Assembly: GCA_003024785.1 (NCBI GenBank)
Contig: PUQB01000512.1
Coordinates: 62,001 to 126,000, forward strand
DNA from: Selaginella tamariscina
Taxonomy: Eukaryota; Streptophyta; Lycopodiopsida; Selaginellales; Selaginellaceae
Direction of reading: 5' to 3'
DNA length: 64,000 bases
Made by a program: the position numbers and the translations under genes. Below are positions 3,698-26,300 of this stretch, piece after piece (the first letter of the stretch is position 1; the number at the start of each line of letters is the position of its first letter). Below the pieces are notes generated by a model. It did not search any database. It was not told the DNA's origin and saw only the letters and a list, made by a program, of their open reading frames with translations.

Positions 3698-3789
3698 GTT
3701 TGATAATAACTGATTTCATAGCTTTCTGATTTTCAACTTTTTTTCCTTGATTTTTCTCCTTCGTTTTCCTCTTTTTTCTTTCATAAATC

Positions 3790-4790
3790 ATGACCAATTT
3801 TGAGCAATTTCAATACAAGCACCAAATATTGCTTCATGAGCTAGCCACTTTGTCCAAGTGGTCACAGATCTGCAAAGTTCCACCAATGCGGCACATGCAA
3901 TTGCTAATGCATCCTCCAAGGCTGCTACATGCTCTCTTAAGCATTGTGGTTTCCTCTCCATCGATCACTTCTTTGGAGCAGAAGATCAGCATGTCGAAAA
4001 AGTTCAATGGCAATCGTGCTAATTTCCAAGAGTTCCTAAATCAGATCAGGCTTTTGATCCGCATGTAACCACGCCGCTACTCGACTGATGCACAAAAGGT
4101 TGGCCTTTTGGCATCCCTACTAGTTGGATCTCCACGGGCTTGGGTTGCCCCTTTGCTAGAGCGTGATGACCCATTCATGGAAGACTTTAAAGGTTTTGTG
4201 ACTGCCTTTGAAGGTTTCGTGACTGCCTTTGAAGCTTACTTTGGAGATCCCAATAAGTACCGTTCTGCATGCACAAAGTTATGAAAGCTCACACAAGAAT
4301 CTCGATCAACTTCTGTCTATGCATCCGAATTTCAACAACTTTGCACAAACATTCCATGGGACGAGACTGCATTGATTGAACACTTCTGTTTTGGGTTGAG
4401 GGATGACGTGAAGGACCTTCTCCTTACATTACCGGATGCCTAAACATTAACGAAAATCATGCAATAGGCCGTTTGCTGTAACAACCGCTTGTTCGAGCGT
4501 TGTTAAGAAAAATCCCGTTAATAATTTTTGCAAACCAATCCTGTAGCTGTGGTACATACTCCTGCAACACCTTCTAGAGTAGTTCCTATGGAGGTTGAGA
4601 AATACAAGCGCAGCTCACTTTCCGCTGCTGAGAAGTAACATCGTCGTAGTGAGAATCTATGTTTGTATTGTGGTGAAGCAGGACACAAGGCGACAAAATG
4701 TCCTATTAAAGCCAGGAAGTTCAAATGCATAAAGTTGAAGTTGAAGTTCAGTTAGAAAACTTTAATGTTCACTTCGTCTAGGAGCCACGA
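3790..4790 (+). pseudogene. gag of gypsy copy 1 (broken)
   Basis: The reading frame opens at 3,790 with MTNFEQFQYKHQILLHELA and encodes a capsid/nucleocapsid polyprotein in several frames. A CCHC zinc knuckle (CLYCGEAGHKATKC) lies near 4,657-4,700. The counterpart at 58,593-59,567 is less damaged and guides the frame. Several stops and frame changes show that no full Gag can be made. A short internal duplication occurs around 4,185-4,235, where a GGTTTTGTGACTGCCTTTGA-like segment appears twice. Confidence 0.8.
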
Positions 4791-4802
4791 AGTTGGACGT
4801 AA

Positions 4803-7800
4803 GTGCAGGCTCCATTATTGCTACTTATACCATTTCATCACTCAAGTTTTGTACACATTCATCTCAATAATCGAGAGCTCAAGGAGTTTGCCCTGTTAGA
4901 CACTAGTGCAAATGCATGCTTCATGGATGACACTTTTGCAACTCAACATGGCATTCCAGTGGTGAAGTTGAAGCGTGCAGTTCCTGTAGAGGTGGCTGAT
5001 GTCATCTGATTGCTTCTGGCGCAGTTACCCATGCTACCAAACCTCTCTCTTGTAGTCATGGCGCATTCAACTGTTCGATTTCCTTCAACTTGATCAAGAC
5101 TCGGCCGACTCCCATCATTTTGGGCATGCCATGGTTCGTTGTTGCAAATCCTCAGATCAACTGGAGGTCTAGGACGCTCAGTTTTTTCCTCTGGCAACCA
5201 GGATCAATCTGTACTTACTATGTGCAGGATACATCCTTAGTGTCTGAGGCAGTACAAGCTACAGGATTGACCGTCTGTTCCTGTATCAGTGTTGAAGACT
5301 CTTCCTCGACAAGATTCACCTCATGTCAGTTCCTCAGCACATCCGCAGGCTCTCTCACTCTTATAATTCGCAGATTCTGTACAGTTCTTCCAATCCTGTA
5401 TCAGTGTCGAAGGTTCCTCCTCAACAGGATCCACCTCCTATTGGTTCATCAGCACACTCACAGGCTCTCCTCATTCCTGTGCATCCACGGACTTCTGTAC
5501 AGGATTCTTCCAATCCTGTACACTTGTTCAACATCCACACATGTTTCTCCCAATCCTCCTCTTTTCATTACTCTTCTTCTGTTCCACCCCCCAAGATCCT
5601 TCCTCTTTTTAATCACAGCTCCCTCCTTCTCCTCTAAGTTCTTACCACTACCATGCATGAACTTGCCACTGATCCTGCTCCTTTTCATCTTTTTGCCTTC
5701 CAAGTAACTCCTACGTCCTCTTCTACCTTTCCTGTATCTGACTCCCTGTTTTTAATCTTCTTCTCTGTTCCTTCTTCTTCTCCTCCTTCCCTGCCATCCA
5801 AGTATCACTCCTTTAAGAACGTTTTTGACAAGCACAAGGCTGCAATTCTTCTATTCACAGGTCCTATGACTGTCCTATCGATCTTGTGGAAGGAAAGACT
5901 CCACCGTTCAGACCGATTTATGCACTGTCACCTACAGAATTGAAGGTTCTTCGTAAGTACATCGAGGAAAACTTGGCATCCGGCTTCATTCGTCACTCAA
6001 AGTCCCTGCAGGAGCACCTATCTTCTTTATCAAGAAGAAAGATAAGAGTTTACGTTTGGTTGTGGACTACAGAGGTTTGAATCAAGTCACCATTCGTTGT
6101 CCATTGATCCCGGAACTTCTGATCGGCTGCAAGGAGCAAAGGTGTTCACGAAGATCAACTTACGAGGGGCTTACAATCTTGTATGGATTCGTCCAGGCGA
6201 TGAGTGGAAGACTGCCTTTCGTACAAGTATGGACACTTCGAGTACACGGTGATGCCTTTCGGACTTACCAATGCCCCAACCGTGTTCCAACACATGGTGA
6301 ACGATATCTTTCATGACTTCTTGGACCAGTTGTCATACCTCGATGACATTTTGATTTTCTCAAGGACCAGGCAGCTCATGACAAGCATGTACGACTAGTC
6401 CTATAGAGGCTTCACGAGCATGGCTGTATGAAGTTGGAGAAGTGTTTCTTGATAGGGATACTGTGGAGTTCTTGGGCTACATCGTCTCTCATGCTAGCGT
6501 TTCCATGGACATGCACAAGGTGAAGACTATCGCAGAGTGGGAGAGGCCCAAGTCTGTACGAGACATACAATGTTTCTTGGCTTTGCAAACTTCTACAGGC
6601 ATTTCATACAGGACTTCTCCAAGCGTGTACTTCCACTCACAAACTCACCAAGCGCACAGAGTTTCTCTTGGTCCGACAAGGGAACATGCATTACAACACT
6701 CAAGGACGCCTTCATGACAGCTCCGATTTTAGCACATTGATCCTTTCGTCCTTCTTCGTTGAAGCAAGATGCCTCGGATTTTGCAGTAGGATTGTTTTAT
6801 CACAAGTTGGAGAAAACAAGTTGCTTCATCCTGTAACTTTTCACACTCATAAGTTCCTTTCAGCGGAGATTCAATTACGAGATTCATGACAAGGAACTCA
6901 AGGCCATTGTGGATTGTTCGAGGAGTGGCGGCATTTCCTGGAAGGTGCTGGCATCCTGTACAAGTTCTTATGGATCACAAGAACTTGGAGTATTTTCAAA
7001 CAGCTCGGTTCTTAGTCGGTGACAGGCTAGGTGGGCAGAGTTCCTATCACGTTTTGATTTCATCATTATCTATAGGCCTGGTTTTTGAAATGGCAAGGCA
7101 GATGCATTGTCTAGGCGTTCTTACCTTGCACTGACCCCGAGCAATCCTGCATATGACTATCAAAAGCAAGTGTTGTTGGGTCTTGATTGACTTTGACTTG
7201 CAGCACTACAAGTTCATCAGGCTCCAGCAGATTCCACACTCTTATAGACATCCGTTTGCAGTTGGCTATAGATGACTTGGTAAGAATGTGTTTTCACACA
7301 TTAGTCCTGACATTGCAAATTCCTTTTCCTCCATTCCTATACAGACTACAAGTTGTTTATCATACAAGACGGACTCCTATACCGGGAAGGTCTCCTGTAC
7401 GTTCTTGTTGGTGTTTGCAAGACTCGTGTGGTACATGATTGTTATGATACCCCGGCTACAGGACATTTTGGTGTGGCTAAGATAGTTGAGTTGGTGACTC
7501 GTAACTATTGGTGGCGTAGGTTGTGAGGTTTTATGGACAAGTTTGTACGGAGTTTTGACACCTACAATAGGTCGAAGATGCCTCGTCATGCGCCCTTTGG
7601 TCTTTTTTGTCCTCTTCCTGTTCCTTCTGCTCCTTGGAGATCCATTTCTATGGATTTCCTCACATCTTCCTCCTTCTCGTGGATTTGATGCAGTTCTTGT
7701 GGTGGTTGACCATTTCACCAAACAAGCTCATTTCCTACATGTCACAAGACTGCTACAGGCCAGACAACCGCTGAGTTGGTGATCCGCGAAGTATTCGACA

Positions 7801-8581
7801 CCATGGTCTTCCTGAGAGCATTGTTTCTAATGAGGCCCACAATTCATGTCCAAGTTTTGGTGAGAACTTCTCCAGAGTCTACAGGTTAAAGCAGACCTTT
7901 CTTCAGGATACCATCCACAAACTGATGGGCAGTCAGAACGCACGATTCAGACCTTGGAGCAATATCTTTGCTGCTTCATTAGTTACCAATAGGACAACTA
8001 GTTGGACCTTCTTCCAATGGCGAATTTACCTACAACAACTCCGTTCACGCATCTACAGGCCAGACACCTTTCTTTGCTCTTACAGGCTACCATCCACGTT
8101 TTGACTTTGCTCCTCCTGTTTCCCCTTCTTCCGCTCCTGCAGTACAGGATCGTCTCCAGCATCTTTGTCAAGTACATGAGGATCTTCGGGTTCATCGTCA
8201 ACCGGCACTTGCATACAAGATTGGTGATCTCGTGTGACTTCTTCGTCGGCATATTCACACCAACAAGCCTTCTTTTAAGTTAGATTTTCAACGATTGAGC
8301 CCTTACAGGATTGCGGTTGAGGTCAATCCTATAGCTTTCCGACTCTCTACGGTGAAACTTCATCTGTGTTTCACACCTCTTTGTTGGAGCTGTATCATCC
8401 TTCTTCTCTTTTTGGTCGTGCTTCTTCTCCTCCTTCTCCTCCTATGGTCATTGACGGTGAACCTGAGTACAACGTTGCAGCCATCCTTGATTCTCGTCTT
8501 CATCGCTGCCAACTTCAATACTTGATGAATTGAAAGGTTATTTGCCTACCAATCGCACTTGGGAACTTGAACCTAAATGCA
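4803..8581 (+). pseudogene. pol of gypsy copy 1: protease, RT, RNase H, integrase, chromodomain (broken)
   Basis: Domains appear in the usual Ty3/gypsy order across changing frames. The protease has LLDTSANACF near 4,895 (DTSA in place of DTGA). Reverse transcriptase shows [13 protein letters not shown] near 6,060 and the catalytic [10 protein letters not shown] near 6,330. RNase H follows around 6,740-6,900. Integrase is at 7,430-8,000 with the HPQTDGQSE-type segment near 7,920. A C-terminal chromodomain-like end (PEYNVAAILDSRL, then TNRTWELEP) lies at 8,460-8,575. The order RT-RNase H-integrase-chromodomain places it among chromoviruses. The last codons lie beyond the nested 14.2-kb element, at 22,788-22,885. 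Multiple indels and stops make it inactive. Confidence 0.82.
8578..8581. repeat. Putative target site duplication (TGCA), left copy
   Basis: TGCA immediately left of the 14.2-kb element also occurs at 22,784-22,787 immediately right of it. Joining the flanks regenerates a plausible gypsy coding sequence (WELEPNASNLLHAS) after correcting one base, which supports this as the insertion point. The duplicated length is short and uncertain by one base because the outermost TIR base differs between ends. Confidence 0.5.
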
Positions 8582-8582
8582 A

Positions 8583-8603
8583 GTTGTAACTAAAATGGGC
8601 ATG
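8583..8603 (+). repeat. Left terminal inverted repeat of the 14.2-kb element
   Basis: Reads GTTGTAACTAAAATGG and continues GCATG. The inverse complement at 22,762-22,782 matches at 20 of 21 positions. Beyond 21 bases the ends diverge into AT-rich sequence. Confidence 0.8.
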
Positions 8604-9179
8604 GCTATAGTCCCATTTCCTAATAATTAGCAATTTTAGCTATTTAATTAGCATTTTCTAATATTAAAGGAATATTCTTTAGAATATATGTTTGAAAAAG
8701 AATATTCTTTAGAATATTCTATTTTGTATTCTACCCTTTAATAAATTATAGCATTCATTGAAAAAAATTAATAACATTATAAAAGTAGAAGTATTAAATT
8801 ATATAATATATTGCCTAATATAACAATTAAGGAAGAGCATAAGAGGTACATTATATAAATATTGATGTTGTTATTAAAATATTAATATTTAAATATAACA
8901 TTATTAATTAAAAATTTGTAATAGTAATAATAATATATAAAATCCTATAATAATATAGTCAATCTTCCATATCATTTTTTAAATTTATATAGTTAAGTAT
9001 ACAATTTGGTACTATTATTAAAGAGTTTATAATAATTATGAATATTAAATATATGATATTTTATAATTTTATAATTGCTTTAAGCTTCAGAAAACATACA
9101 TTCCCTTGCAGTTTTGTTAATCGTGACTTTATCAACGCTTCTTGACATCCACCCATATCGAATGGATTTAACATTTATA
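8604..9179. other. Left subterminal region with GAATATTC palindromes
   Basis: No gene. AT-rich, with GAATATTC repeated (8,667, 8,700, 8,716) and TTTAGAATAT variants. Similar motifs stand near the right end (22,590-22,620), so they may be subterminal binding sites for the transposase. The segment 9,090-9,180 may still contain the 3' end or UTR of the leftward gene. Confidence 0.5.
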
Positions 9180-12100
9180 AAACATGCTGGGTCTTTTTGA
9201 TTGGGAGACCATGTTTTCTCTAGCATCCATTATATCTTTCGCTCTCCTTCTCGTGTCGCCTTTTTTGTGGTTTGAACCATGCAACCTTAACAATACTATT
9301 TTTTGTGATTACTTCAGGTGTGTCGATAATTTGACCCATCCAAATAGGCTGATTATAACGCATCTGGAGTAATGAGAACCATCATTAGTTTTTGAAGATC
9401 CTGGCAACAATCAAAGTATGCTTTAGGTTTTTGGTTCCTTTGTCCAACAAAGTGTGGGGTTTGCACTTCCACATCACTACTGGCTTCTATGTCGTCTATG
9501 CTCAGTGATGTCATTTCAATCTCCTCTCGCCACCTTGTTTTAGGCCAGAAAGGGTGTTGCAATTCTGTACTTGTGACAGTAGGCCCTTCCAACTCTCGAA
9601 CAAACAGTCTCCCAATAGTCGACCACATGCTTATATAGTTCTGAGTAACCAGTTGCCTTATCAGAATTCTTTGGCATCGATTTTTGAACCCATGCCACAT
9701 TTTTTTGATGCCATCAATAATAACCTCTTGTTCCTTGAGCTGGGCACTCAATGGAATAGGGTCTGGTTGTCCTTCTGGGAGAAGTGGCTTTCCATCCTTC
9801 CACTTTTGAAGAGCATTAAGCCCTCTTTCGGTAACCACTCCTGCTCTGATGGCCGTAACTTGTACTGCATAATAGGTATACCATCTCGTATGGAGAAAAA
9901 GAATTGTAGCGGCACAAGGTGACCAACTAAAGAATCACTCCCTTCTTTTATATATTCCTTGAGAAATTTTTTGAAGTCTAGCACCTCAGTCACAAGCAAA
10001 GCACAACTTTTTTTGGAGATGCAATTTTCAAAAAGATTCATCATATGCGGTAAGGTAAGTGCACTTGTCCTTTTTGTAGAGTTGGAGACCTTGCTGAAGA
10101 ACGCATCAATATCTTCATGAGTGTGACCAACCATAAGGAAACTGAGCGTGATTGTTTCAAACACACCTTTGGCAACAAGCATTGACAAGTATGCTAGCAC
10201 ATATCTAGAAAATAAAAGTAAGTATGAGCTTGAGAAACCCTTAAGTAAAATGATTTACCTATTTTTGTTCTCGCCTGCACAATTATCCATCTGTAAAAGC
10301 AAATGACGAGGAAGCTTATTTGATGTTGAGGACACATGTACACTATTTGAGCTAGATCCCTCCACTGAACCAGAACTCTCAACAGGGCCATCTATTTCTG
10401 TGCAGGCTGTTGACAATGCCTCTCATATTCCCAAGTAGCCTCAAGTGCAGATGTGTTCATGAGAGCATTATGTAAAGGTTGAAGGTGTTGTTTCTTCACT
10501 TTGAGATCACTGATAGGACTTGTCTGTGCGTGGGCTTCAAGGTTTCTGAAACACATGGCTAACGACCCAATAGTGAAATTGGAGTCGCTAGACCAATGTG
10601 GAAGTGAAAAGTGTCCATATGACTCACAACCGTGTCCATGTGTTAGCACACCTGTCAATGAAATCGGAAGTTTCATGACATTTCCAAGGCACTTTGGTGT
10701 TGCAAAGAGCTTTGGAATGCTGGTCTTTGAATGATCCATCTTGTCATGGATCAAGCACAGGTACTCTGATGGGCGTGACACAGAAAGCATGCGGTGTGCA
10801 TAGTACTGAGACCGGCAAGTTTGTTGTGCAATCATGTGGGCCTCCATCTTCTTTTGAATGGTAGTGATCTCCACCAAGGTTTTTGCACAAGCCTCTGCAG
10901 CCTTCAATGATGTACAAGTGTCACACTTGGAAAAGCTAGAGTGTTTTGCAATCTCCACATCCTTAAAATGAGTATTCCATATGTTGTTGAAGGTACCAGT
11001 GCAGATTGCTTGGAGCCCCATCAAACTGAGGCACTTGTTCACATGTTCACACAGCTTCAATTGAGTGTAGATTGAAGGCAAAACCTTGAGATTTTCCCTG
11101 ACCCCTGCATTTGTGGTTCGGCATTTGTGAGGCATCCTGTCTGCATTTGCTTCCACAAAAGCCTTGAGTATCTCTATGGCTGCCATGATGTGAGAGCGGG
11201 TTTTGACCAAGCGAGTGTTCCCATGAACTGAGGTTCGCGCTCCATCTAGCCACTCATCCCTCCGACGGTAGAACGTGGTCTTTGGGATCCGTATATACTG
11301 TACCAAGCTTTGAAGCAGATGGCCACCTTATTAAATACCATGGATGTACTCTGATAACCTGTGTCCGAGGCCATTCCATCAATACACCCAGTTAGTGCAG
11401 CATATACAAACTCATGCCTTTGCTTTTGGGTGAGCATACGAAAGACATGTCTACATTGGGTAATTTCATTCCGGTCTGCCATCTGACAACACTTCTTCTT
11501 GCAACAGTCAATCGTGGAAATGCTCGTAACACTTTCGAAGATGTAGGATCCATCTTTACCCTCTTGCTGAAACTTGCAGGGGAAGATCTACAACCCATGA
11601 ATCGCCTTTTTCTTACAATAGGACCAATGCAAGGAACCTCTTCAAATATGAGTTGTTCTTCCGGGTTGTTATTATTGAAATCCAACCCAGAATATGTTGA
11701 ACCATCTTGCCGTCTTAATTCAGATGTTCGCCACCTCACGAGGGATCCAGGATACAATGTGCCATTAGGTGAAACCTCTGTCACAACTACACCCACGAAG
11801 TCGGACCCTAGTTTCTCTTCTGACACTGCTTCCATTGGATTTATAGCTGTGATGATGCCTCTTCCGACTTCAATCTCACGAAGAAAGAGAATCACCTCAT
11901 CCATCACAGCAGGCAAGCCATCATCTGGTAAACTCGTGCTACTATTTGTTTGTGACTCTGCATATTCTGTGTCAGCCTTGACTTCATCCAAATTCCACAA
12001 TACAGGAGAACCCTCCTCAAATTCCATTCCCAGAACCTCAACATGCTTGTAAATGGTGTTCACCCATACGTACACACAAGATCCTTGGGCAATATTGTGA

Positions 12101-12204
12101 CATGATGCATTATTATCTCGAACTTCCACAGTTCCAGTGCCAACTATCTCGTTGTTCCGAAGAAGACATACTTTATCTCCAGTATTAAACATATTGTCCT
12201 GCAC
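9180..12204 (-). CDS. DUF7869-type transposase-like protein, frame-broken
   Basis: A large leftward gene starting at ATG 12,204. N-terminal 200 residues (frame open to 11,392) hold a DUF8039-like beta module (NTGDKVCLLR...VEVLGMEF). Next come CCKKKCC and a helical region with FYRRRDEWLDGA, then CDTCTSLKA near 10,900. The core reads LLQMDNCAGENKNR, an intron (10,205-10,258, GT-AG), then YVLAYLSMLVAKGVF and VGHTHEDIDAFF near 10,100. DN...GHTHEDID is the signature I associate with DUF7869 proteins, which recur in transposon-like loci and probably have an RNase H-like fold. The C-terminus is BAH-like (PIWMGQIIDTPE...VKVAWFKP, about 9,250-9,350). At least four single-base frame changes occur (near 11,535, 11,270, 10,430, 9,840). 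The role as the element's transposase is inferred from position and family. Confidence 0.72.
10205..10258 (-). other. 54-bp intron in the DUF7869-type gene
   Basis: On the minus strand the intron begins GTAAATC and ends TTCTAG. Splicing joins GENKN-R to YVLAYL, exactly between the catalytic-looking DN motif and the downstream helix, giving the continuous family signature. Introns in the ParB-like gene are of the same size class. Confidence 0.8.
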
Positions 12205-12339
12205 ATAAATAATTGTATTATTTATGATATCTGTTTATGCAATATTTTCTAAGAAATTGAATTACGGTTACTTAATAATATGCATATGCAATAATACATA
12301 ATTATGTTTAGAGATAATATCTCATGTTTGATTAATACA

Positions 12340-12835
12340 ACTGATGGGCGGGATTAATCCCGCCCATGAATCCCTCCGACGAGGAACGGTCGGCGGGATT
12401 AATCCCGCCCACAATTCTTACGACGGGGAATGGGTGGCGGGATTAAACCCGCACATAATTCTCTCCAAAACTATGATTTCAAAGAGATCTCGGATAAATC
12501 CTGTCCCCAAATTCTTAAAACAGGGATGTGGTGGCGAGATTAATCCCGCCACCCCTTCCCTGCCTTTTAAAATGGTTGCGGGATTAATCCCGCCGACAAC
12601 TCTTTCTAATAAATTCTGGTAACTCTTCATCAGTTGAGAAGGTTATTGGCGGGATTAATCCCGCCACTCTTTTTCAGTGGCGGAGAAGCATTGCCCGAGA
12701 GATGGTGGCGGGATAATCCCGCCACTCTTTTTCAGTGGCGGAGAAGCATTGCCCGAAAGATGGTGGCCGGATTAATCCCGCCACCTCTTCGAAGAGGCGA
12801 AAAAAGAAATGGCCGAATTAATCCCGCCGCCCCGG
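12340..12835. repeat. Palindrome array L (about 10 copies of GGCGGGATTAATCCCGCC)
   Basis: Copies and variants stand near 12,347, 12,393, 12,437, 12,494, 12,534, 12,577, 12,649, 12,706, 12,766 and 12,812, spaced about 40-70 bp. The first extends to a 24-bp perfect palindrome (12,344-12,367). Two neighbouring units share a 60-bp spacer containing TTTTTCAGTGGCGGAGAAG, so local tandem duplication contributes. The array begins about 140 bp upstream of the start of the leftward DUF7869-type gene. Confidence 0.92.
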
Positions 12836-13380
12836 TTAACTAGAATATTAAGTTAAAAGGATATTTAAATGGGATAAATCCCTAACGGAAATATATTATA
12901 ATCCTAATGCATTCCTAAACCCCTAAATTGTAATTTTAAGAGAGAATGTAAGAGAGTGAATCTTTATAAGTATTTTAAAATTTATTTATAATACTTACTT
13001 GTAAACAGCACTGAAGGCGCCGTGCTTTCCTATAAAGAATAGCACTCAGTTTAATCTCGCTCCTGAGATGATCACTATGAAGAAAAAAGAAGATTTAAAG
13101 AGTGAAAAATACAGAAATGAAGAAACCCTTGCCGGAGAAAGAACCAGATCTGAATTTGAGTGGAAATTAAATGCATTTTCAAATTTACATGTCAGACAAA
13201 TAATACATAGTCAGAAATTCAAATTTTTTAAAAAGAACAGAAAAATAAATTTAAGATGAGTTGACACAAATATCTGACACTCTGACATATATTACTCTCC
13301 AGTTCCAATGAGTATTTTAAAATTGCATTTAATGTTATTCAAGTGATTCAAGCTGTTTAATATTATGAAATTTTAGACTA
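12836..13380. other. AT-rich spacer, no supported gene
   Basis: The region carries no recognisable coding sequence. A 192-bp open frame at 13,068-13,259 is lysine-rich and has no features of a known family. GC content drops sharply compared with the adjacent palindrome array. Confidence 0.5.
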
Positions 13381-14170
13381 TATTCTACATTCTTAGTATT
13401 CAAGTATATTTATATTATATATATATATATAAATATACTTATACAATAAATAAATTGATATATTATTATGTATCATTTAAAATATATTCATAGTCTGTTT
13501 ATTATTATTATTTTCTTAATTACTCGAGTATTTAGTTTTCATTTCCTAGTATCAATGGGATATTCTTTATATTTTATAATATTTGAAGAATATTCTAATA
13601 TTACATTAATATATACAAATGTAGAATAATTACTGCAATAATTAAGAACAAGACTAATTTAATTATGATATTTTCTCAATTAATTTGTTATTATTTCAAG
13701 AATATCATGTGTTAAACCTTATTATCAATATTAATTAATATATTATTAAAACTATATATGACTATATATTAGATAAAATGATGTATTATTATGTATAATT
13801 TAAAATATGTTCATAGTGTGTATATTAATATCATTTCCTTAATTACTTGAGTAATTAATCTTCTTTATATTAATGGGATATTCTTTATTATTTTCTTATT
13901 ATTCCAAGAATATTCCAATATTAAACATGATTATGATAATTAATTTAGTTAATTATTTGAGTACTTAATTTACATTTGTATATTAATGGGATTTTCTCAA
14001 TTAATTTCTTATTATTTCAAGAATTTTCAATGTTAAACCTTTTTATCAATATTAAATTAATATATATTATAAAACTATATAGGCTATATATTAGATAAAT
14101 CATATATTATTATGTATATTTAAAATATGTTCATAGTGTGTTTATTAATATTATTTTCTTAATTATTCGA
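13381..14170. repeat. Three tandem copies of a ~322-bp AT-rich unit
   Basis: TATTATTATGTAT followed by a TTTAAAATAT-type segment and TTCATAGT starts at 13,461, 13,784 and 14,105, i.e. periods of 323 and 321 bp. Each unit also contains an ATTACT(C/T)GAGTA motif, ATGGGATATTCTTTAT and a GAATATTC-like palindrome. Copies differ by scattered substitutions and short gaps. Confidence 0.8.
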
Positions 14171-15240
14171 TGTTTGTTTTGCAACACATAAAAACACAAT
14201 CATAAATTTACACACGCATTACGAACACATATGCACACACATGTACAACCCTAAACCAAACTGAAGAAATATGTTGCTTCTTTATTGAAAACATCATGTT
14301 CAACGCATGTATGATATATGTACTCAATCTGTGTGTATGTAACACATTGAATTTACATGTGTAATATTTAATTAAGCTTGTTGGGAGCAAACCCTAAACC
14401 CTAATATGTAACACAATGAATTTACTCATGTAATATGTATGTCTGTGTGTATACACGTGTGTATGTATATAGTGTACTCTGTATGTATCCATGTTAATAT
14501 GTACTGCTCTCTTCTCTCAAACATACACACCATGCATGATCTATAATATGTACTCGGTCTCTCTAATATTACTAATAGTATGTATGTCTGTGTGTATAAT
14601 ACACACCATGCATGATCCATAATATGTACTGTCTCTCTTCTCTCATATACTATGTATGTATATCTATGTATAATATGTGTAAGTATATATGTGTACTAAT
14701 ATATGCAATGTATACAAAAATAATTTTTCAACACTCTCTCTTCTCTCATACATACACACCATGCATGATCCATCCTAAATCCAAAACCCTAAACCCTAAA
14801 CCCTAAACCCATGTAATATGTATGTATGTCTGTGTGTATACACGTGTGTATGTATATTATGTGTATTAATATATGCAATGTGTATGTATGTATTGATATA
14901 CATGAAACTTTAACACTCTCATGGACACACATATGTTAAATCCCTGCATGATTTATATTTTGGGGTGTATGTGATACACCCACGCACACGCACGCACACG
15001 CGCTAATAATATAATGAAAGAATATTCGTTTAGGGCGAATCTATATTTTATTCTTTTAGGGTTTAAGTATATTCTCAGAAGGAATATTCTATTAAGGTTA
15101 ATATATATATTTAATTCCTTTAGGGTTTAGGTATATTCTTAGGGTTGCAAGAGGCGGCGGCTGTGAAATCGGCGGCGGCGGCTATGCACACAGGTGAGAT
15201 CTGTGTGTGTGTATATGTATGTATGTATATATAGGGTGTG
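14171..15240. other. TATG/TGTA-rich region with interstitial telomere motifs and GAATATTC motifs
   Basis: No gene. ACACACCATGCATGATC occurs three times (about 14,525, 14,597, 14,754) in variable TG/CA-rich context. Telomere-like CCCTAAA runs occur at 14,390-14,404 and 14,784-14,810, and TTTAGGGTTTA at 15,055 and 15,122 in the opposite orientation. A GGC-trinucleotide stretch lies at 15,149-15,181. GAATATTC occurs near 15,020 and 15,081. Confidence 0.75.
14784..14810 (-). repeat. Interstitial telomere-like repeat (CCCTAAA)n
   Basis: Three complete CCCTAAA units plus a partial fourth, matching the plant-type telomere repeat TTTAGGG on the opposite strand. Shorter one- to two-unit relatives lie at 14,226, 14,394, 15,055 and 15,122. 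Confidence 0.9.
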
Positions 15241-16082
15241 CATAATTTTATGTGTACCAGTATCTATAAATTTGTTTTTATTGATCTATCTCTCCCACAC
15301 ACACGCACACTGCTTTACATATATATATATATATATAATCAATGCATATTAACAAATAGTATACAACACTAGTTTATATATATGCTTATATATTCATATG
15401 GGTTATATATCTATATACACATATATATATGTGTGTGTTTATCTGTATAATTTTATTTATTTATTAGTTTTATCTCTCGCACACACACGCACACTCCTGT
15501 GTATATATATGTGTGTGTGTTGTTTGTTTATCTGTATGATTTTATTTGTTTCGCTCACACACGCATACACACAATATATATATACACATATATATATACC
15601 TATATACATATATACATACATATATTATGTGTACCAGTATCTATATAATTTTTTTTATTGATCTATCTCTCCCACACATACACACACTGCTTTACATATA
15701 TAATATATAATATATATAATCAATGCATATTAACAAATAGTATACAACACTAGTTTATATATATGCTTATATATTCATAGACTCTCTCTCTTTCTCTATG
15801 GGTTATATATCTATATACACACATATATATGTGTGTGTTTATCTGTATAATTTTATTTATTTATTAGTTTTATTTTCGCACACACACGCACACTCCTGTG
15901 TATATATATGTGTGTGTGTGTGTTTGTTTATCTGTATGATTTTATTTGTTTCGCTCACACGCATACACACGATATACATATACACACATATATATACCTA
16001 TGTACACACATATATATGTCCAGTACTATAAATTTTATTTATTTATCTATCTCTTGCACACACACGTACACTCATATACTAC

Positions 16083-16125
<43 letters not shown>

Positions 16126-16192
16126 TATATATGTGTGTGTTTTATCTGTATAATTTTTTATTTATTATTTTTTCTCGCACACACGCTAAGCC
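15241..16192. repeat. ~2.5 tandem copies of a ~377-bp microsatellite-rich unit
   Basis: TGTGTACCAGTATCTATA starts at 15,251 and again at 15,628 (period 377), and a decayed third start (CCAGTACTATAAATTTTATT) occurs near 16,020. Each unit contains (CA)n, (TA)n and (TG)n tracts plus a conserved ATCAATGCATATTAACAAAT segment. All long open frames here are runs of Tyr/Ile/His/Thr from these dinucleotides. Confidence 0.85.
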
Positions 16193-16195
16193 CCT

Positions 16196-17648
16196 CGAGC
16201 GGCGGGATTAATCGCCGCTATAGGTTTATGGCCTCGGCGGCGGATTAATCCCGCCTATAGGTTTATGGCCTTGGCAACGGGATTAATCCCGCCGCTCACC
16301 CATGCCCTGCGCGAATGCAGCGGGATTTATCTCGCCGGCAATGGCCTGTGTGAAGACCCTAATGGGCGGGATTAATCCCGGTGGATTCCGCGCAGGCATT
16401 TACAGGGATGGGCGGCGGGATTAATCCCGCCGCTCATGAGGCTAACCGAAGAGCCTGCATGAAAGATCCTGCACGGAAGGCTAACCGAAGAGCCTACATG
16501 ACATGTCCTGCGCGTAAGGCGGCGGGATTAATCCCGCCGCCCAGGAATTCACGCAGGACATGAACGGCGGGATTAATCCCGCCCCACGCTCATGCCCTTC
16601 GCGGAGGGGGCGGGATTAATCCCGCGCTCAGGCACTTCTGCAGGATATAAGTGGCGGGATTAATCCCACCCCCATCCCTGTTCAAAATGCCGCAGAATAT
16701 ATATGTGTGAGCGCATGATTTACAGAGGGCGGCGGGATCTCTCCGAACCTTCATTGCCCGGTGGCGGGATTAATCCCGCCACCCTTTTTTCCTCCATTGA
16801 TATGTTGAATCAATCCCGAACTAACTCTGTCTGAGACGGAGAAGGTTTACAAAATACCAATGGAGGGAACTGAGAAGGGTGGTGGGATTAATTTCACCAT
16901 CCCTTACATGTGGGCGGATTAATCCCGCCGCGTACGCATGCCCTGCACGGAATCGGGCGGGATTTATCCCGCCGCCATTGGCCTTGCCTGAAGGGCCTAG
17001 GCGGCGGGATTAATCCCGCAAGATTTCGCACAGGGCGTTGGCGTTCGGCGGGATTAATCCCGCCGACTAAGGCCCGAGTGAAGGGCCTGGGAGGCGGGAT
17101 TAATCCGCGCATACGCATGCCCTGCGCGAAATCGGGGATTTATCCCGCCATTGGCCTGCCTGAAGTGCCTAGGCGGCGGGATTAATCCCGCCGATTCCGC
17201 GCAGGGAATTGGCGTCCGGCGGGATTAATCCCGCCGCATAGGGACCGAGTGAAGGCCCTGGGCGGCGGGATTAATCCCGCCGAGTCTTCAATGCGTTGGA
17301 GAAATGAATCCGCCACCCTTCCCTTTTTCTCCATTGGTGAGTCGGACCAATCCCAAACGTTTCTGTCTGAAGACGTAGAAGGTTTACAACATACCAATGG
17401 AGGAATGGGAAGGGTGGCGAATTCATTTAACCATCCCTTACATGGTGGGCGAGATTAATCCCGCCTCCTTTCTGGAGTCACTGAAGGGTGTGTGAGAAAT
17501 AAATCCTGCCCAGTTCTCTCTGAGACCAAAAGGGTGGCAAGATTAATTCCGCACTCCCGTTCAAGGCCTCCAAAAGGTGGCGAGATTAATCCCGCCCACT
17601 CTTTCAGGAGGCATTGAAGGGGTGGCGAGATTAATCCCGCCGCACCTT
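16196..17648. repeat. Palindrome array R (about 25 copies of GGCGGGATTAATCCCGCC)
   Basis: Copies recur about every 40-48 bp from 16,199 to 17,640, with gaps near 16,430-16,515 and 17,285-17,440. The copy at 16,518-16,541 is a 24-bp perfect palindrome. Common changes are single transitions (GATTTATC, GAGATTAATC). Spacers are also related: ACGCATGCCCTGC starts at 16,934 and 17,113 (179-bp, four-unit higher-order repeat), and a CTCCATTG...CCAATGGAGG segment recurs at 16,792 and 17,320 (about 528 bp apart). The array ends about 300 bp before the first exon of the ParB-like gene. Confidence 0.93.
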
Positions 17649-17983
17649 CCATGTGAATATATATGTGTATTAGTATATATAAGTTGCATATCTCATTTTA
17701 TTTACTTTTATCATCTTATCATAATATTTCGAATAAAAGCTAGGAATCTATGTAAAACTGTCCAGAGCTCACATTTGTGGTGATTCTAAAACGAAATGTT
17801 ATCTTTCTTTTGCACTAGCACAAATGTGAGCTTCGGACAGTTAATTACGTTACTTCTCTCTGTGTATTATTTTTGTATATTCGGGTTTATACAAGTGTGT
17901 GTGCGTTTTTATATGATTTGTATTCATAGTGTATTATTTTGCAGAAGGACGATTTGATCAAACAAGGAGATCGAGTCATTAGT
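17649..17983 (+). promoter_or_regulatory. Upstream region of the ParB-like gene with a 22-bp stem-loop
   Basis: Between array R and the first ATG. Arms at 17,758-17,779 and 17,819-17,840 (CACAAATGTGAGCTTCGGACAG on the right) pair at 20 of 22 positions around a 39-base loop. A 3' splice-like TTTTGCAG at 17,937-17,944 precedes the first recognisable exon, so the transcript may begin upstream and the hairpin could be in the 5' UTR or an intron. Confidence 0.55.
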
Positions 17984-20900
17984 ATGGAGTCGTCGTCAAA
18001 TTCTGGGTAAGAATTAAAATAAAATCTGTTATACTCGGATATTGAACTAATATTTTGTATTCAGATGTGGAATTGAGGACATTAAAGACAAGAGCAGGAG
18101 AAGAGATGGGCAGGGGGATTCTGGAATCAACTTAGCCATTTTTTAAGATAAATGGGAAGCGCATTGGAGCAACCATGGTCTGTCAAATTAACCTCTATCA
18201 CATCTCATGGACAAGCAAAACAATGGAAAGTAGATTCGCTAGTCAAGCACCCGAAAGTAGGCTGCGAACCCAGATTGGACGATTCTCGACAGATATGCCT
18301 GTTCCATCCAATGTCACGTTCTCGGATCCAGAGGTCGTCAGTTACAACATTAATTTCGGGTGGTTTTGTTCGACTTGTGGATAATGACGTTCACGTGTTC
18401 ACTAATGATGTTGACCTTGGAGTTCTTCTTAAACTCAACGAAAGCCCATCTATGGAGGGGATTCCATCTGGAAGTCTCTTCGAAGACTCATCGAGTAGGT
18501 GTATTGTCAGGAGATATTGCTTCACAATACAGAAAATCAGCAAGTGGAGCAATCTTCCCTCTTCACATTGAAGAAGAACACAGCGACATCATAATGGAGA
18601 TTGAGAGGTGGCTCGGTCTCAGGTTCTCTACAGATCACGTTCAATTTGCTTAGGAAGCTTCGGGAGCTGGAAGAGTGTGCCGAGAACACTAGAACAGCTG
18701 CAGTCGGGGATCACACATGTTGATTCGGATCGCAAAAGAAAATCATCAATCGTTTTGTCAGCTGCACCTGTGGCATCTCATGCTGCAATAAGTCACAAGG
18801 AAATGATGTTGGATGATAAGATTTATCCTTGTAGGGTTAAATATTGCAGCGTCAACCCAAACTTCAATTACAGGCCACTCAACCAGGAACGTGTAGCTGA
18901 GCTCATGGAGAAGATGAAGGACGACAATTCTTATACCGTTCCACATAATGCTGTTTTGTGTCCATACTATGAAAGAAGGAAGGGCGCTGACAAAGTCTGG
19001 ATCACAACACCAGAACAACTCATGAAGATTCAGACGGAGAATAAAAATCTATCAAGTACTACATCATTAGTGGCCAGCACACAATAACGGCAGCCCAACG
19101 ACTTCTCGATGAACACAACAAAGGAACGATGGCAACAAAACTTTCCGAGCATACCCGTGAGAAGCTGACAAAAAGATCGGCGTTTTTAGCTAAGCCGAAT
19201 CTCACAATCGAGCAGTACCATAAGTTATCGGCGGAATGGGACGCTGCCGACACCAACCACTACAACAGCAAAATATGGGAGAAGTTTAAACACACGCGAG
19301 CCGTGTGGGAATCTCTTCAGCGACCACAAAGAGCTACCGCAGGGAATACACAATCTGCGGAATACCGGGTAAGCAAATTGTTTGGGCGGGATTTATCTCG
19401 CCGGTATATTAATCTGTCTTTTTCCTCAGAGAGTTGAAGAAATTGCAGCAGTTGATTTTGCCCAGGTGGGCGGGAAGGAAACATCCTTTCTGATGATGTT
19501 GATTTCTTGCCCCGAAGATAGGATCTTTGCCAAATGGTTGGGGATTATGGAATCCTTTTCAAAAGGAACACTGAAGAAGAAGCAGACAAGTGAAGGGGAG
19601 CCCTCAGAAAAGTCTGCAAAGAAACCCAGTAAGACGCCGAAGGCTAAGTCTGTTCAATCTACAAAGGATGTAGACAACGATTTCAAGCTCACATGGTTGA
19701 AGCCTTTAAATGGAACAACGATGGAGGAGATGGAAGTCTTGGCTGATTTGGTGATCGATGGCAAACTACAAATTAATAACAGCAGCCCAACCTCTCCTTT
19801 TCATCTCAAGGCAATGGAGTTGAAGACGGTCAGGCATTTCAAGGAGTGGTTGGGAATACACTGCCACAAACTGGGTTGGACCTCGACTTCAACATATGAA
19901 GAGGTCAGCAAATATTTGCATGTGACGAACGATGATATGCTTGTCGAATGGGTGAACCAATCGGAAGATCTAGGCAAGAATCTATTGCACGCCAACGCCA
20001 AAAAGGAGAACATTGGGATGACGCCTTCTCTTATGGCAGTCCTTCAGCAGCGGAGAACCGAATTGAACCTTATAAAGGAGGATGCTACGAATCACGACAA
20101 GCCCTACAGATGTTTGTTGTTAGATTCGGAGACTTTATGGGGTAACATCACTGCTTGTAGGAAACCGTTTCAATTGTTCGTGATGGATCGGCGGGTGTCA
20201 AAAAATCTTTCGACAGATAGGGCACTAGAGGATCTGGTGGAGAAACTTAGCCGTGCAAGCATATACATAGAAGGTATTTATTATTGAATTCATGCTTGCG
20301 CTCTTCACTGATACCTACTTTTTCAGGTATTTATTTCTTGATTCTTGCTCATGTCACCGATACTTTTGCCTTCGCCTTCGCCAAGAAGAATAGACATCGT
20401 TGGACAGGATTTTATATGAACGATGCTAATCCCAAGTGCATTGATACCGTTGTTCACTTGGTTGTTAGGAATGCGCCAAACAATTTCAAGCTTCCAAATG
20501 ACTGGCCAGGCATCTGTTTGCACTCCAACGGCCCTGAACCTCCATCCGATACACCGATAGGTATGAGTGACGTATTCGGCAATGTACGTTATCCAAACAT
20601 TACAAGTCAAGCGGCACGGAGCATCGTCAACTTGATAGGGGTCCACAGTGATGCGTGGGTTTTTGACTACTGCACTAGGGGGTCCGTCTTGAAGGAGTGT
20701 TACCTTCGGCATACATGTGTGTTTGCCGTTGAAAAGGATAAGACCATGGTTGAGGACCTGAACAAGTGGATAGATTGGGTCTCAACTGAGTACCCCAACG
20801 ATCCATAAAGGCGTATTTGAGAAAGTTCCCTCCAGATAAGTGCGATAGCTCTGAAGGTGAATCTGGTTCAATCTCGGAGTCTGAGAACGAACTTCAATCA

Positions 20901-21068
20901 GATATTAGACCGGAAGTTATCTCGAGGAGTACAGAACATTCGCACACTCCAGGACCCATGGAAACATCAATAGAAGATGCAGAAGATCTTGAACCATCTC
21001 ACAAGCGGCTTAGACCTTCTTCGCCTCACTCAGAAGGTAATAGCGAAGAAGAATTGATAATGAATTGA
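17984..21068 (+). CDS. ParB-like / methyltransferase-like fusion protein, frame-broken
   Basis: Exons are separated by GT-AG introns at 18,007-18,064, 19,369-19,429 and 20,274-20,326. The start is the ATG at 17,984 (MESSSNSG). The first 600 bases after exon 2 switch frame several times. A ParB/Srx-like domain is clear at 18,820-19,110: PCRVKYCSVNPNFNYRPLN, RVAELMEKM, then IISGQHTITAAQRLL after a one-base shift in an A-run at 19,042. A Lys/Ser-rich linker (19,560-19,680) and helical region follow. The C-terminal half resembles a permuted (class beta) DNA N4/N6 methyltransferase: PFQLFVMDRR (20,165) stands where DPPY is expected, and WVFDYCTRGSVL (20,656) where the SAM-binding FxGxG motif is expected. 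Key catalytic residues are missing. The tail is acidic with HKRLRPSSP (possible NLS), reached by another shift near 20,806. ParB identification is firm; the methylase fold is inference. Confidence 0.68.
19384..19402. repeat. Single palindrome copy inside an intron of the ParB-like gene
   Basis: GGGCGGGATTTATCTCGCC occupies the middle of the 61-bp intron 19,369-19,429. It is the same unit as in arrays L and R (the GATTTATCTCGCC variant also occurs at about 16,319) and is the only copy seen in the gene body. Confidence 0.85.
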
Positions 21069-21371
21069 TAGAGTGATGAATAGTTGTAAATGAGTGTAAC
21101 ATAAGGCATTTTTGTATATTTCTTTTATATTTGTACAGAAAATAAATTCTCAAGGATTAATGAAGCTTTTAGTTCAAACATGGGTCACACATTAACAAGG
21201 TAAATAATATACCTTGATAATTTTAAGGTCAGCTAATTATCATTTTGCAGATGTAATGAAATAATTGAGAACATGGATTTTCAGCATTGCATGAGGTAAG
21301 AGAGGGGTTTGGCGACAATTTCTTGTGCCACATGTCAGAATGACAGAGTTCATGCAGGAAATGGATAATAA
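21069..21371 (+). other. Intergenic/5' exon region between ParB-like and HAD-like genes
   Basis: Two exon-like segments bounded by splice signals are visible: 21,137-21,200 (after TTTGTACAG, before GTAAATAA) and 21,251-21,294 (after TTTTGCAG, before GTAAGAGA). They have no long frame, so they could be untranslated leader exons of the HAD-like gene or 3' UTR exons of the ParB-like gene. Confidence 0.4.
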
Positions 21372-22518
21372 TGCAGCTCAAAACATCGTTACCATGGGGG
21401 CCACTTCATCATCATTTTTATTGGCTTCATTCCGAAATCAATTTCTTCAGCGCATGCAATATCTGAATCTTGTAAGGATGATGTACAATTAAATGATGAA
21501 GGGATAGGCAACGAGATAGTGGCAACGGATAAATGTGAAAGGGAGCAAACAAGTGATTTGCAAAGTATTCAAGAGGCAACGCTATCTCATGTTACTCATG
21601 GCCATATTGTGTTGTTGGATGTCAATGGTGTTCTGCTTCATCGACAAAGGCCCAGGATAGAAAAAAGAAATCAAACAAGGAGATTTCATTCCTTGTCATG
21701 GTAAATTTCGATATGATATTATTTTTCGTCCAGGGTTGGATCGTCTCTTTCAAAAGCTTAAGGAGATGGGTGCGCTTGTGGGGATTTGGTCATGCATGCA
21801 GATTCATAACTTAACACCGCTGTTGAATTTACTTAAGAAACATTGTAGTGTTGCAGAAGAGGTGATTCGTAAAGATTGGATTTTTGACCAGCGAATATGT
21901 TATAAACCTCTCGAATTTCACAATATAAGAAAGGAAAGCAAGCCATACTTCTTCAAGAATGAAAGAATAATTGGGACTCATGGGGAGATCAGTCGCTTAA
22001 GGATAATGAAGAACGCACAGATGTTAGTAGTAGACGACTCTCCTCAGAAGGCTATGCTCAACCAAAACATTGCTTGTATTCATCCAATCACTTTCGATCC
22101 ATATTCTGATACCGATATCATGGATGAGCTAGTGAACTACTTGGATACGTGCCTCAGAAAGAAGAATCTCGAAAATTTTTGTGAGCAGTATCCACCGTAT
22201 CATACATTTCCTGAAGCTTTTCTTTCTCGTGATATTGAATTTTATAAAATGAAGGATAGCAACCGGGCGCTTTATAATATTATTCTTAAGGAACGTCAGT
22301 TTTTAGATGAGCCTTTATGCAGACCTTCTCTTATCACATCTTATGTATTAACAAGGATGGCAACTCCCAATTGCATTCGTGAGAGTGTTAAGTGGTGGCA
22401 ACAACATCAAGATATTGACCAAAATGATTTGATTAATCCGGAGAGTGATGATTTAGACAAAATGAAGATTTCTTTGTATGATAGAAAGAAAGTATTTATA
22501 AAAAAATTAACATGTTGA
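21372..22518 (+). CDS. HAD-superfamily (FCP1/NIF-type) phosphatase-like protein, one frame break
   Basis: The frame is open from 21,372; no good ATG is evident, so the true start is probably in an upstream exon. Motif I is VLLDVNGVLLHR near 21,610, motif II GALVGIWSCM near 21,766, and motif IV MLVVDDSPQKAM near 22,021, followed by ITFDPYSDTD. This is the FCP1-type HAD layout (FRPGLDRLFQKLKE sits between motifs I and II). The second Asp of the DxD motif is Asn, as in some plant DLNG-type HAD proteins, so catalysis is uncertain. One extra A in an A-run near 21,660 shifts the frame; removing it joins both halves. The C-terminal 120 residues are not recognised. It ends 265 bp inside the right TIR, so it is a passenger of the element. 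Confidence 0.72.
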
Positions 22519-22761
22519 TAAGAAAATGATTTCATTTGTAATTATGTTTGATAGTATTTCTTCATTATTGTAAACTATTTTTAATAATATGAATATTCTA
22601 AGATATTTTAGGAATATTCCTTACTAAGTAAGGTTATTGAAGGATTAATTAATTAATTAATTAATATTTAAGGCTTAATTACATATTAATTAAATGATTA
22701 ATTAATAATTAAAACTTAAGTATTAATTAGTAATTTATTTTATATTCCCATTTTCACGTAT
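22519..22761. other. Right subterminal region with GAATATTC motifs
   Basis: AT-rich tail of the 14.2-kb element, including GAATATTC at 22,591, GGAATATTCC at 22,612 and an ATTA tetranucleotide run at 22,643-22,665. The motif mirrors those near the left TIR. Confidence 0.55.
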
Positions 22762-22782
22762 CATGCCCACTTTAGTTACAAC
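22762..22782 (-). repeat. Right terminal inverted repeat of the 14.2-kb element
   Basis: Inverse complement of 8,583-8,603 at 20 of 21 positions, followed one base later by TGCA, the putative target duplication. Confidence 0.8.
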
Positions 22783-22787
22783 GTGCA

Positions 22788-22891
22788 TCTAACTTACTCC
22801 ATGCTTCTTCCAAAGTTGTTGCTTTTCATCAGTGTTATCTTACTAAACCAGGTCCCAAGACTCGTGGAACTTGTCCTTAGGGAGGACATGC
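22788..22891 (+). pseudogene. C-terminal end of gypsy copy 1 pol and polypurine tract
   Basis: Resumes the gypsy frame after the nested element: SNLLHASSKVVAFHQCYLTK, then PGPKTRGTCP and a stop. The purine-rich GGGAGGACATGC directly precedes the 3' LTR and serves as the polypurine tract. Confidence 0.75.
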
Positions 22892-23370: not shown

Positions 23371-26300
23371 CTATACAAGTTAAAGTTACATGTCAAATGT
23401 ACATGGGCCAAGAAGCTTACCAGTTAATCTCTTGTCATCAATAAAGTTTCTGCAGAATAATTCAACTTGTTGTGCATCATCATGGTTCAAAGTGTATTTT
23501 CCAGTTTGTGGTTGAAACGTCAAGTTGACAATTGATATGACATTGTCAAGTAAAACAGTTGCATGATCTATTAAGTCATATGTCCACTCTCCAGATTGTT
23601 CATCCTTTTGATACCATCGAAGATTGAGACGGATTGGATATGATGGCCTATCACTCAAATCCACAAGCTCTCTAGTCTCCCTCCAAGAGTTCCTAGCTTT
23701 CCTAGACATCTTTAAAATCCTCCCAATATACCAGTTCCTACCCTCGTAAAACACTGCAATATCTGTACCATATGAAACTGAAGTTTGTGTTTTAATCCTC
23801 TCCATTTGGCCACTATCGTACACACTTGCTTTCACTTTTGTCAACCTATCTTTTGAAAAGAAAGGACTGCCGTTGAGGTGAGAAACAAGAGTGCTCTTAG
23901 CAATTTTCTTTGAATCAAGTTCAACGTATTGTGTAGCCTTTTGAACTTGTCCTGTTTTCTCTTCTTGATCTAGCATCATATCAAACGTATGCCTTAACTC
24001 CAATGTCGATGCTAAAGTCTCATCCTCGTCTTGATTTGTTATAGCTGGCTCACTTTCCATCTCAGGATCATCTGCTTTCACCAATAAAAGTTTGTAAACT
24101 AGTTGTAAAGTTAGTCTTGTAAAAGTCTTCAAAGGCCCATGGACATTCCCACCAGTCTTTATCAGTTGACACTCCAACTATTGCAAGCATTTTTTGTGCC
24201 TCTGCCAATCCATCTTTGAGAACTGCTACTAGCTGATCATCTGTTTCTAGACCTTGGAAATTTGCTAAATCCACAACAACATTACTATCTTTTGTCTCTA
24301 AATGTGACCAAATAGCTTCCTGTTTCTTATGTGCAATAGGAAAGTTTAACGTACCAGAACTTTTGATCTCACTCAACCGGTTCATACATCCAGCTGTGTC
24401 AAGTAAATCAACACCATCATACGCACGCTCATTTCGCACCATGCCTCCTACTTTGCTGAAGAAATTTTCACAGCAATCTGATCCTGATAGCCAAAGAGGT
24501 ACTGGAACTCTTGGAAGTTTTTCCCTGAAAAAGCTTGATCAAGAGAACAACGTAATGACAAGAGATCTCGATATCCAAAAAGGCCTCATTACTTATGAAG
24601 TTTTCCTTCAACTGAAGGTTGTAGAGTGAACAATCCAAAGGCGCCAAAGTCTAACTAAAAGAGTTAAAATTATAAAGAAAAAAATTATGAACTTTAAAAG
24701 TACCTGAAAAAGAAACTGACTGTGCTTGCAGCTTTTACTCGCTCTGCTAAACTTTTTGTTGGAGAAAGAAAAATGTCAAAGTAAAGAGATGCTGCAGAGA
24801 GATACACTTCTGTGCCTTGTGTGGCTTCTCGCTTACAATCTTCACGTTCTCGAGCTGCTCGCAAAACAACATTGAACTTTACGTGAGCATAAATGTTGTG
24901 CTGCAGCCCAATTTTGTCTATCCTTTCTCTCTACATCACCCTTTTGCAGTTCATGTTCTTGTCGAGGGAAAACTTCATGCACTAGCCATATGTGGTTCAA
25001 CGTCACTAAGAAATCTCCAATGACCAATCTCTTAGCAGCAGAATCCAAAGGGTTGACTAATTTCTTTCCATTATGTGGAAAATCTTGGTCATGCAAGCCT
25101 TCTACCCAACCATCTGCCCTCCGCGTCGCTGTAAAAACCCAACCACTCCAATCAACCTTGAATGGATTAGCTTTCACCTTACTATAGTCCTCCAGCATGA
25201 TTTTTCTACGTCGACCATCTCCGTCAGAGGCATGTCCAACCACTGGTCCAAGAGCACCTTCCAATCTTGTTTTCCACATGTCTTCTAGCATTTGCCATTG
25301 TTGTCAACCTCTCTATGTGTAAACCGGTTGCATGTCAACTGAATCATCAAAGTTAAGCGAGGCACATTTTCCACTAGTGGATTAATCATGAGAACTCTTG
25401 CATAGCTTGCCATCTGACATGTCTCAAAAGCCTACACATAAATATGTAAATTTATTACAATAAACTATATTAAACCAAAAATAACAACTTACATGTGTAA
25501 TAGTGTTGAAGCCTTCTTCACCACTGCCTACCACCACTTTAAAATCTGGTTGGCAAACATGATTTTCAAGCTTGCCACAAAAACCGACCAATGCATCTTA
25601 ATGTGGAATCCAGCGGACACATCTTTTAATTTGAGTTTCATCTTCAGATATCTGAACAGGAACTCCTCCCATAAGATGAATCTTTTTAGTGTAGACCCTG
25701 TAAATATCGGCAAGCTGGCTAAAAAGCTCCTCACTAAAACCAACAACATATCGCAATGTCTTACGCATGGATCTTTTTGTTTGTATCCATGGATAGACTG
25801 CCAAAGTTCAAAGCTAAAAAGTTGTGCATCCGAGCACCTCCAAAAATCCTCACAGCCTCAAACATATCCTTAGTCTCTACACTCCAACATTTACCACTGT
25901 TTGGACGCCTAATATTCTGAGCAATATCTGTCAAGAAAGCCCATAGAGCTGGAAGACCTTCAAATTTTCCATGATCATGTGCCTCTACTATATCCCTACA
26001 AAACTTGCGAACATCACCTCTACACAAGTTCTCTCCCAAAGCATCTGTAATATTTCTTGATGTCATTGAAAGAGCAGTAATCCGCATCCTTTGATAAAGC
26101 ACTAGCTTTTTGTATCGTCGAAGCTCACTAGCACCAAACTTGCATTGGTTCAATAACTCTCGACTTGAAAGCCAACTAAGCCTAGTTCCTTCTCCAGATG
26201 TCCTGCTACCTCGACCAAGTCTTCCTGAAGTTACTGCAAGTTCATGCCTATAAACCCGCATTCTAAAGTCATTTTCCTTTGTATATTCACACAGTAACTA

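Follow-up and report, generated by a model that had tools for sequence, protein, structure and literature searches.

The stretch analysed here, called the window below, comprises 64,000 nucleotides of Selaginella tamariscina (assembly GCA_003024785.1, contig PUQB01000512.1, positions 62,001 to 126,000 of the forward strand). It contains an element bounded by terminal inverted repeats (TIRs) that carries a DUF7869 gene, a divergently oriented gene with candidate ParB/Srx-like and methylase-like parts, a HAD-superfamily gene, and two arrays of a short palindrome lying upstream of the first two genes (Table 1). Junction comparison across copies placed the limits of the element at 8577 and 22788, a length of 14,212 bp. 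Taken together, its ends (27-bp TIRs flanked by 4-bp target duplications), copies, and gene content indicate that it is very probably a cut-and-paste DNA transposon, apparently autonomous, present in high copy number, and active in the recent past.

Table 1. Features of the element and its immediate flanks, in window positions
Feature	Position	Strand	Remarks
Target site duplication, left (CTAA)	8573..8576	.	From the junction table of copies
Left TIR, 27 bp, ATGCAAGTTGTAACTAAAATGGGCATG	8577..8603	+	
DUF7869 gene, putative transposase	9085..12192	-	Exon 1, 12192-10259; proposed 54-nt intron, 10258-10205; exon 2, 10204 to ~9085
Palindrome array 1, GGCGGGATTAATCCCGCC units	12346..12829	.	Directly upstream of the DUF7869 gene
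(CCCTAAA)n plant-telomere-like repeat	14774..14810	.	Within the element
Palindrome array 2	16200..17648	.	Directly upstream of the ParB-like gene
Putative ParB/Srx-like plus methylase-like gene	17940..21065	+	Start uncertain; ParB-like part to 18994 and 19057-19368; exon 19430-20273; last exon from 20327
Proposed introns of the second gene	18995-19056 (62 nt), 19369-19429 (61 nt), 20274-20326 (53 nt)	+	
Single additional palindrome	19385..19402	.	Within the 19369-19429 intron of the ParB-like gene
HAD-superfamily gene, NIF/FCP type (predicted)	21430..22518	+	Start uncertain; frame break near 21660 in the window copy
Right TIR, 27 bp	22762..22788	-	
Target site duplication, right (CTAA)	22789..22792	.	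From the junction table of copies

Element ends and target site duplications

The two TIRs are identical at 25 of 27 positions, and both ends begin with ATGCA. An earlier note on this DNA had described 21-bp inverted termini, which are present and extend to 27 bp, and a search allowing up to 6 mismatches in 27 located TIR sequence in the window at the two ends only. The presence of other copies with the same boundaries had been set in advance as a check on the element. Junctions were tabulated for 25 copies, including that of the window, and 24 had both ends (C361, in which the right end is absent, was omitted). The similarity of the TIRs is not due to chance.

A key difficulty in placing the ends was the tetranucleotide TGCA, which the earlier note had read as the flanking duplication, giving limits of 8582..22783. 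This was incorrect. The base before TGCA was A in 22 of the 23 readable copies (one more has an N), the base after it was T in 24 of 24, and a 4-bp duplication of variable sequence, CTAA in the window, lay further out, so TGCA belongs to the element. A model that restricts insertion to TGCA (or ATGCAT) and treats TGCA as the duplicated target could draw on an early survey of 21 distinct left junctions at unrelated sites (loci L001 and L009 to L028), 19 of which carried TGCA, and on its presence at nearly all junctions in the later set. Given the near-invariant A and T, the variable duplication outside them, and the lack of TGCA at both empty sites found, that model is highly improbable, and TGCA as a target duplication was ruled out by the wider junction table and the unoccupied sites.

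Exact 4-bp duplications, variable in sequence, flanked 13 of the 24 copies with both ends. When the pairing of flanks was shuffled, a mean of 0.93 exact 4-bp matches was obtained, with a maximum of 5 in 2000 shuffles. At other lengths, flanks matched in a single copy at 2 bp and in none of the 24 at 3 bp or at 5 to 8 bp.

Unoccupied sites were found for two insertions. The copy C324b was inserted within palindrome-array sequence of another copy, representing a nested insertion. Unoccupied copies of this site read ...GAACGGGAGTGCGG..., and the occupied site reads GAACGGGA, element, GGGAGTGCGG; deleting the element and one GGGA restores the junction sequence of the unoccupied copies, yielding a clean empty site. 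The second, C488, was inserted in a gypsy element, for which unoccupied relatives exist in the window at 5029-5131 and 59817-59918.

Copies in the host genome

Searches of the host assembly (G000, 300.7 Mb in 1391 contigs) showed that the element is multi-copy and recently amplified. All 40 left ends scored, the best 40 of 1733 first-look candidates, showed ~99% identity across 611 or more of 619 bases, and all 40 right ends scored, the best 40 of 1358, did so across 334 of 334. Matches to the ParB-gene exon were 100% identical over 282 amino acids (aa) in 138 of 138 cases scored. A search for the DUF7869 family returned 300 matches in the host assembly and none in 14 control genomes, and the eight loci retrieved from this search, one of which is that of the window, appear to belong to the same family.

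Long stretches of sequence were read for eight copies (window, C1026, C724, C455, C1248, C1183, C529, and C617). The earlier note had proposed co-occurrence of the three genes between the TIRs as a check, and five of the eight copies (window, C1026, C724, C455, and C1248) contained both TIRs and all three genes. The first four of these were 14.1 to 14.7 kb long. C1248 (9.7 kb) was missing ~4.5 kb between genes and had an exact 4-bp duplication, and C1183 (9.8 kb), which has lost most of the ParB-like gene, retained both TIRs, with an exact 4-bp duplication around them; C529 reaches an N gap, and C617 is rearranged. Among the matches listed, at least 18 DUF7869/ParB pairs shared the divergent layout at a distance of 9.6 to 11.0 kb, and 22 of 40 ParB matches on contigs with a listed DUF7869 match were without a listed partner. 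This pairing used 106 of the ~150 DUF7869 matches listed (lower-scoring ones omitted) and all 138 ParB matches, and it yields no rate of co-occurrence.

Copies differ from one another by many small insertions and deletions, so assembly error and decay are inseparable. Over the left 3.8 to 4.2 kb, gap positions outnumbered mismatches relative to the window copy in six of the seven other long copies, with C529 as the exception, so base errors of the assembly are likewise inseparable from young mutations.

In C1008 (L117-L118), a copy of the young family interrupts an older relative whose 27-bp left TIR is identical; this relative lies at ~7629 on the reverse strand of the joined stretch. It contains sequence related to both arrays (~80 to 85%), parts of the ParB-like gene region in two stretches at 85 to 87%, and the beginning of the HAD region, and because these occur in the same order, the general layout predates the present burst, the ParB/Srx-part exon of the second gene having given no match there. 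Most of the DUF7869 gene has been lost from this relative. Beside it, in the opposite orientation, lies sequence nearer to the young family (90 to 94% in the longest stretches). Separately, two copies (L105-L106 and L089-L090) have a GTAT duplication and lie in similar sequence, which is reminiscent of the microsatellite region of the element itself; these are possible nested or self-insertions.

Genes and palindrome arrays of the element

The earlier note had read three gene modules: DUF7869, ParB/methylase-like, and HAD-like. Profile searches established the first and last, and a third gene does lie between them; its ParB-like part drew marginal matches, and its methylase-like part drew none.

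In the window copy, exon 2 of the DUF7869 gene matched Pfam PF25273 at 98 bits (cut-off, 26; E=5e-28). Exon 1 reached 47 bits in C529, while the exon 1 piece of the window alone scored 25.2, slightly below the cut-off, so that a clear family match is split over two proposed exons. Exon 1 was open from stop to stop for 660 aa in C529 and 640 aa in C455, and exon 2 for ~390 aa in C1026 and C724; its end in the window (~9085), where the frame is broken, was inferred from other copies. Two motifs recognized by eye in the protein, DNC..NKN and GHTHEDID, resemble a core of the DDE/D type. Most likely, the DUF7869 protein serves as the transposase. Pfam assigns no function to this family; it is here linked to a mobile unit whose ends and 4-bp target duplication are defined and which has undergone a very recent burst. 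Because the unit has defined ends and a target duplication, DUF7869 activity is directly testable.

Of special interest is the second gene, which is probably of the ParB/Srx type. A frame change occurs at the same site in all six copies containing the ParB-like gene, and this common change would be explained by the proposed 62-nt intron at 18995-19056. Removing the segment leaves the ParB-like part open in four of the six copies, and the 844-bp exon at 19430-20273 is open in all six. In the window copy, the reading frame of this gene is broken both in its upstream part and in the last exon, the end of which was placed by reference to other copies. Translation of the spliced gene gave as its best match in PHROGs phrog_1033, a "ParB-like partition protein" (E=0.0037), and as its best match in NCBIfam SerK (E=0.0061), both weak and both seen only with the 62-nt segment removed; a 199-aa query gave GmrSD_N as the best Pfam match, also weak (E=0.1). 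The first two matches cover the same segment, which contains a GQH hairpin, and GmrSD_N overlaps part of it. We take these three families to be members of one ParB/Srx fold group.

The alternative, that the gene is not of the ParB/Srx type and that its profile matches arose by chance, is less likely but deserves weight. All of the matches are marginal, and they followed several queries; the Pfam ParB family itself was not matched, and an 88-aa piece matched DUF1262 (E=0.044) and DUF6681 (E=0.063) in Pfam, with CitR (E=0.097) also appearing in NCBIfam. No relatives were obtained by tblastn against phages and plasmids, by a scan of one prokaryote genome, in the PDB, or with PADLOC. What argues against chance is that these best-matching families belong to a single fold group, that their matches overlap in one segment, and that the ParB and SerK matches depend on removing the segment whose loss leaves the frame open in four of six copies. 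Assignment to the ParB/Srx superfamily (ParB partition proteins, SerK, and GmrSD_N) is thus based on shared weak matches; the gene differs from its members in that no DNA-binding helix-turn-helix was recognized by eye and in that its host is a plant. Weak PDB matches and phage matches (E=7) were taken as chance.

A methylase-like D-x-C-x-x-G...E-K-D pattern was also recognized by eye in this gene. Because D-R-R-V stands in place of the expected DPPY, an active methylase is unlikely, and no N4/N6 DNA methylase profile matched in the libraries scanned. The third gene matched Pfam PF03031 with 36.9 bits against a cut-off of 21.8 (E=3.7e-9), along with a weak match to the NCBIfam dullard-like domain (E=0.013). 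Its DVNG and DDSP motifs correspond to D-x-[ND]-G and DDSP, which we take to be the motifs of NIF/FCP HAD phosphatases, and the predicted product is accordingly described as NIF/FCP type and phosphatase-like.

The proposal that the element owns its palindrome arrays held up, as all 31 palindromes in the window (at up to 3 mismatches) were found within the element. Their consensus, from 129 units in four copies, is CGGCGGGATTAATCCCGCCG. Units are ~44 bp apart: in five copies (C529 was counted here and excluded from the consensus), 75 of 106 spacings below 70 bp fell at 43 to 46 bp. By a stricter count, array 1 has from 6 to 15 units across five copies. The 18-nt units were 86% alike pairwise and the flanking 18 nt 28% (34 units, ungapped), a flank figure that understates the likeness of the spacers. 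Short array 1 spacers were mostly alike within C1026, C455, and C529 (best within-copy likeness up to 0.88). Shuffling was applied to the window copy and C1026; spacer likeness exceeded the shuffled values in C1026, and the five filtered spacers of the window copy were not clearly above theirs. Portions of array 2 are duplicated, and gapped comparison revealed many spacers derived from one another. The likeness of the spacers and the duplicated parts of array 2 indicate that arrays apparently grow by duplication with the palindrome kept, and for the same reasons a CRISPR-like reading of the arrays was dropped. A host factor, rather than an element protein, could also bind the palindrome GGCGGGATTAATCCCGCC, whose half-site resembles the E2F-type core, CCCGCC. 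The telomere-like (CCCTAAA)n repeat was present as at least two tandem units in seven of the eight long copies, C1248 being the exception. Together with the proposed introns of 53 to 62 nt and a UDP-glycosyltransferase gene elsewhere in the window, this repeat suggests a land-plant host, and introns this short are a feature of Selaginella.

Transposition, gene roles, and related systems

Copies at unrelated sites share the same TIRs, the target duplication is fixed in length and variable in sequence, and sites free of the element exist. The element is a TIR DNA transposon, with its superfamily left open. Cut-and-paste transposition fits these ends, fixed 4-bp duplications, and empty sites, as well as the internal-deletion forms. 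In the proposed mechanism, the DUF7869 protein would bind at the TIRs, excise the element, and insert it into target DNA through cuts staggered by 4 bp; the two other proteins, ParB/Srx-plus-methylase-like and FCP-type phosphatase-like, would be carried along with the element.

Several observations weigh against an active, autonomous transposon of this kind. No exact 4-bp duplication was found in 11 of 24 copies; six of these (C233, C488, C113, C1, C724, and C455) have apparently mutated or one-base-shifted duplications, three (C47, C91a, and C91b) have none that could be seen, C102 has an N at the left, and the left end of C450 is poorly aligned. The empty-site comparison for C488 fits an ATTT duplication with one extra base. 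None of the eight long copies has a DUF7869 gene that is fully open, and predicted folds of two second-gene open reading frames (ORFs) of the window were uninformative (pLDDT, 32.5 and 41.4).

Large size, several genes, and ParB/methylase-like content might suggest an integrated viral or giant-virus-derived element instead. This is scarcely credible, since short TIRs, 4-bp duplications, and internal-deletion forms suit a transposon, IMG/VR scans with four ORF pieces, which would detect close relatives only, found no relative, and Pfam recognized no virus gene among the ORFs scanned; a sub-threshold match to a rhabdovirus domain (E=0.047) was taken as chance.

Whether the two additional genes contribute to the transposon is a more balanced question. 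They may play no part in it, being host or bacterial genes captured once and carried by the burst, a possibility that we rate somewhat short of even. The burst is too young to reveal selection, C1183 has an exact duplication and both TIRs despite the loss of most of its ParB-like gene, and the older relative in C1008 has lost the ParB/Srx part along with most of the DUF7869 gene. On the other hand, that relative, with the same left TIR, has the same order of array, array, part of the ParB-like gene, and HAD start, and the ParB-like gene is immediately preceded by one of the arrays. Of the roles that the second protein could have, the likeliest, put forward tentatively, is to regulate the element by way of the palindrome arrays that precede the two divergent genes.

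Such an arrangement recalls the anti-silencing VANDAL transposons of Arabidopsis. As described by Hosaka et al. 2017, VANC targets are tandem-repeat motifs located upstream and in introns, with variation from copy to copy (PMC5735166), so that an extra gene and short-motif arrays in noncoding parts, varying between copies, are common to both systems. The palindrome is unlike the motif named there, and the likeness is one of layout only; no sign of related proteins was seen in the element, VANC sequences themselves not having been compared. A more specific, speculative, and rather unlikely version is that the ParB/Srx-plus-degenerate-methylase protein might be a self-encoded regulator of the CpG-bearing 18- to 20-bp palindrome in promoter-proximal arrays, keeping the transposon expressed or unsilenced, or limiting its copy number. 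It would then be an independently evolved, ParB-derived counterpart of VANC, in a DUF7869 transposon class for which a limited literature search found no published description; the earlier note's "apparently undescribed" stands within the scope of that search. Plant DNA transposons thereby gain a plausible ParB/Srx-type cargo gene and an element-owned palindrome array; a link between the two would make this a new example of self-regulation by a transposon.

Two groups of DNA transposons can be compared by target duplication. The eukaryotic Sola superfamily has TIRs and 4-bp duplications, as does the element. Ginger1 has 4-bp duplications, the same length as in the element (PMC10045372). No Pfam match to a Ginger1-type retroviral integrase domain was found in the element ORFs and pieces scanned.

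Sequence around the insertion includes further repeats and genes. The left flank of the element, up to 7611, is related to the gypsy copy at 58 to 62 kb, and gypsy similarity within the window ends at 7611. The two related gypsy-like elements (3361-7611 and 58048-62319) are 84 to 91% identical over three aligned stretches, and a 13-bp repeat of the TACAGGATATGCC type forms arrays in their vicinity. Beside the insertion, at 23386-25303 on the minus strand, three open frames of 153 to 263 aa without a confident Pfam match perhaps represent another mobile element. Among the ORFs scanned, a UDP-glycosyltransferase gene (52138-53202, minus strand; PF00201, 93 bits) is the one most clearly attributable to the host.

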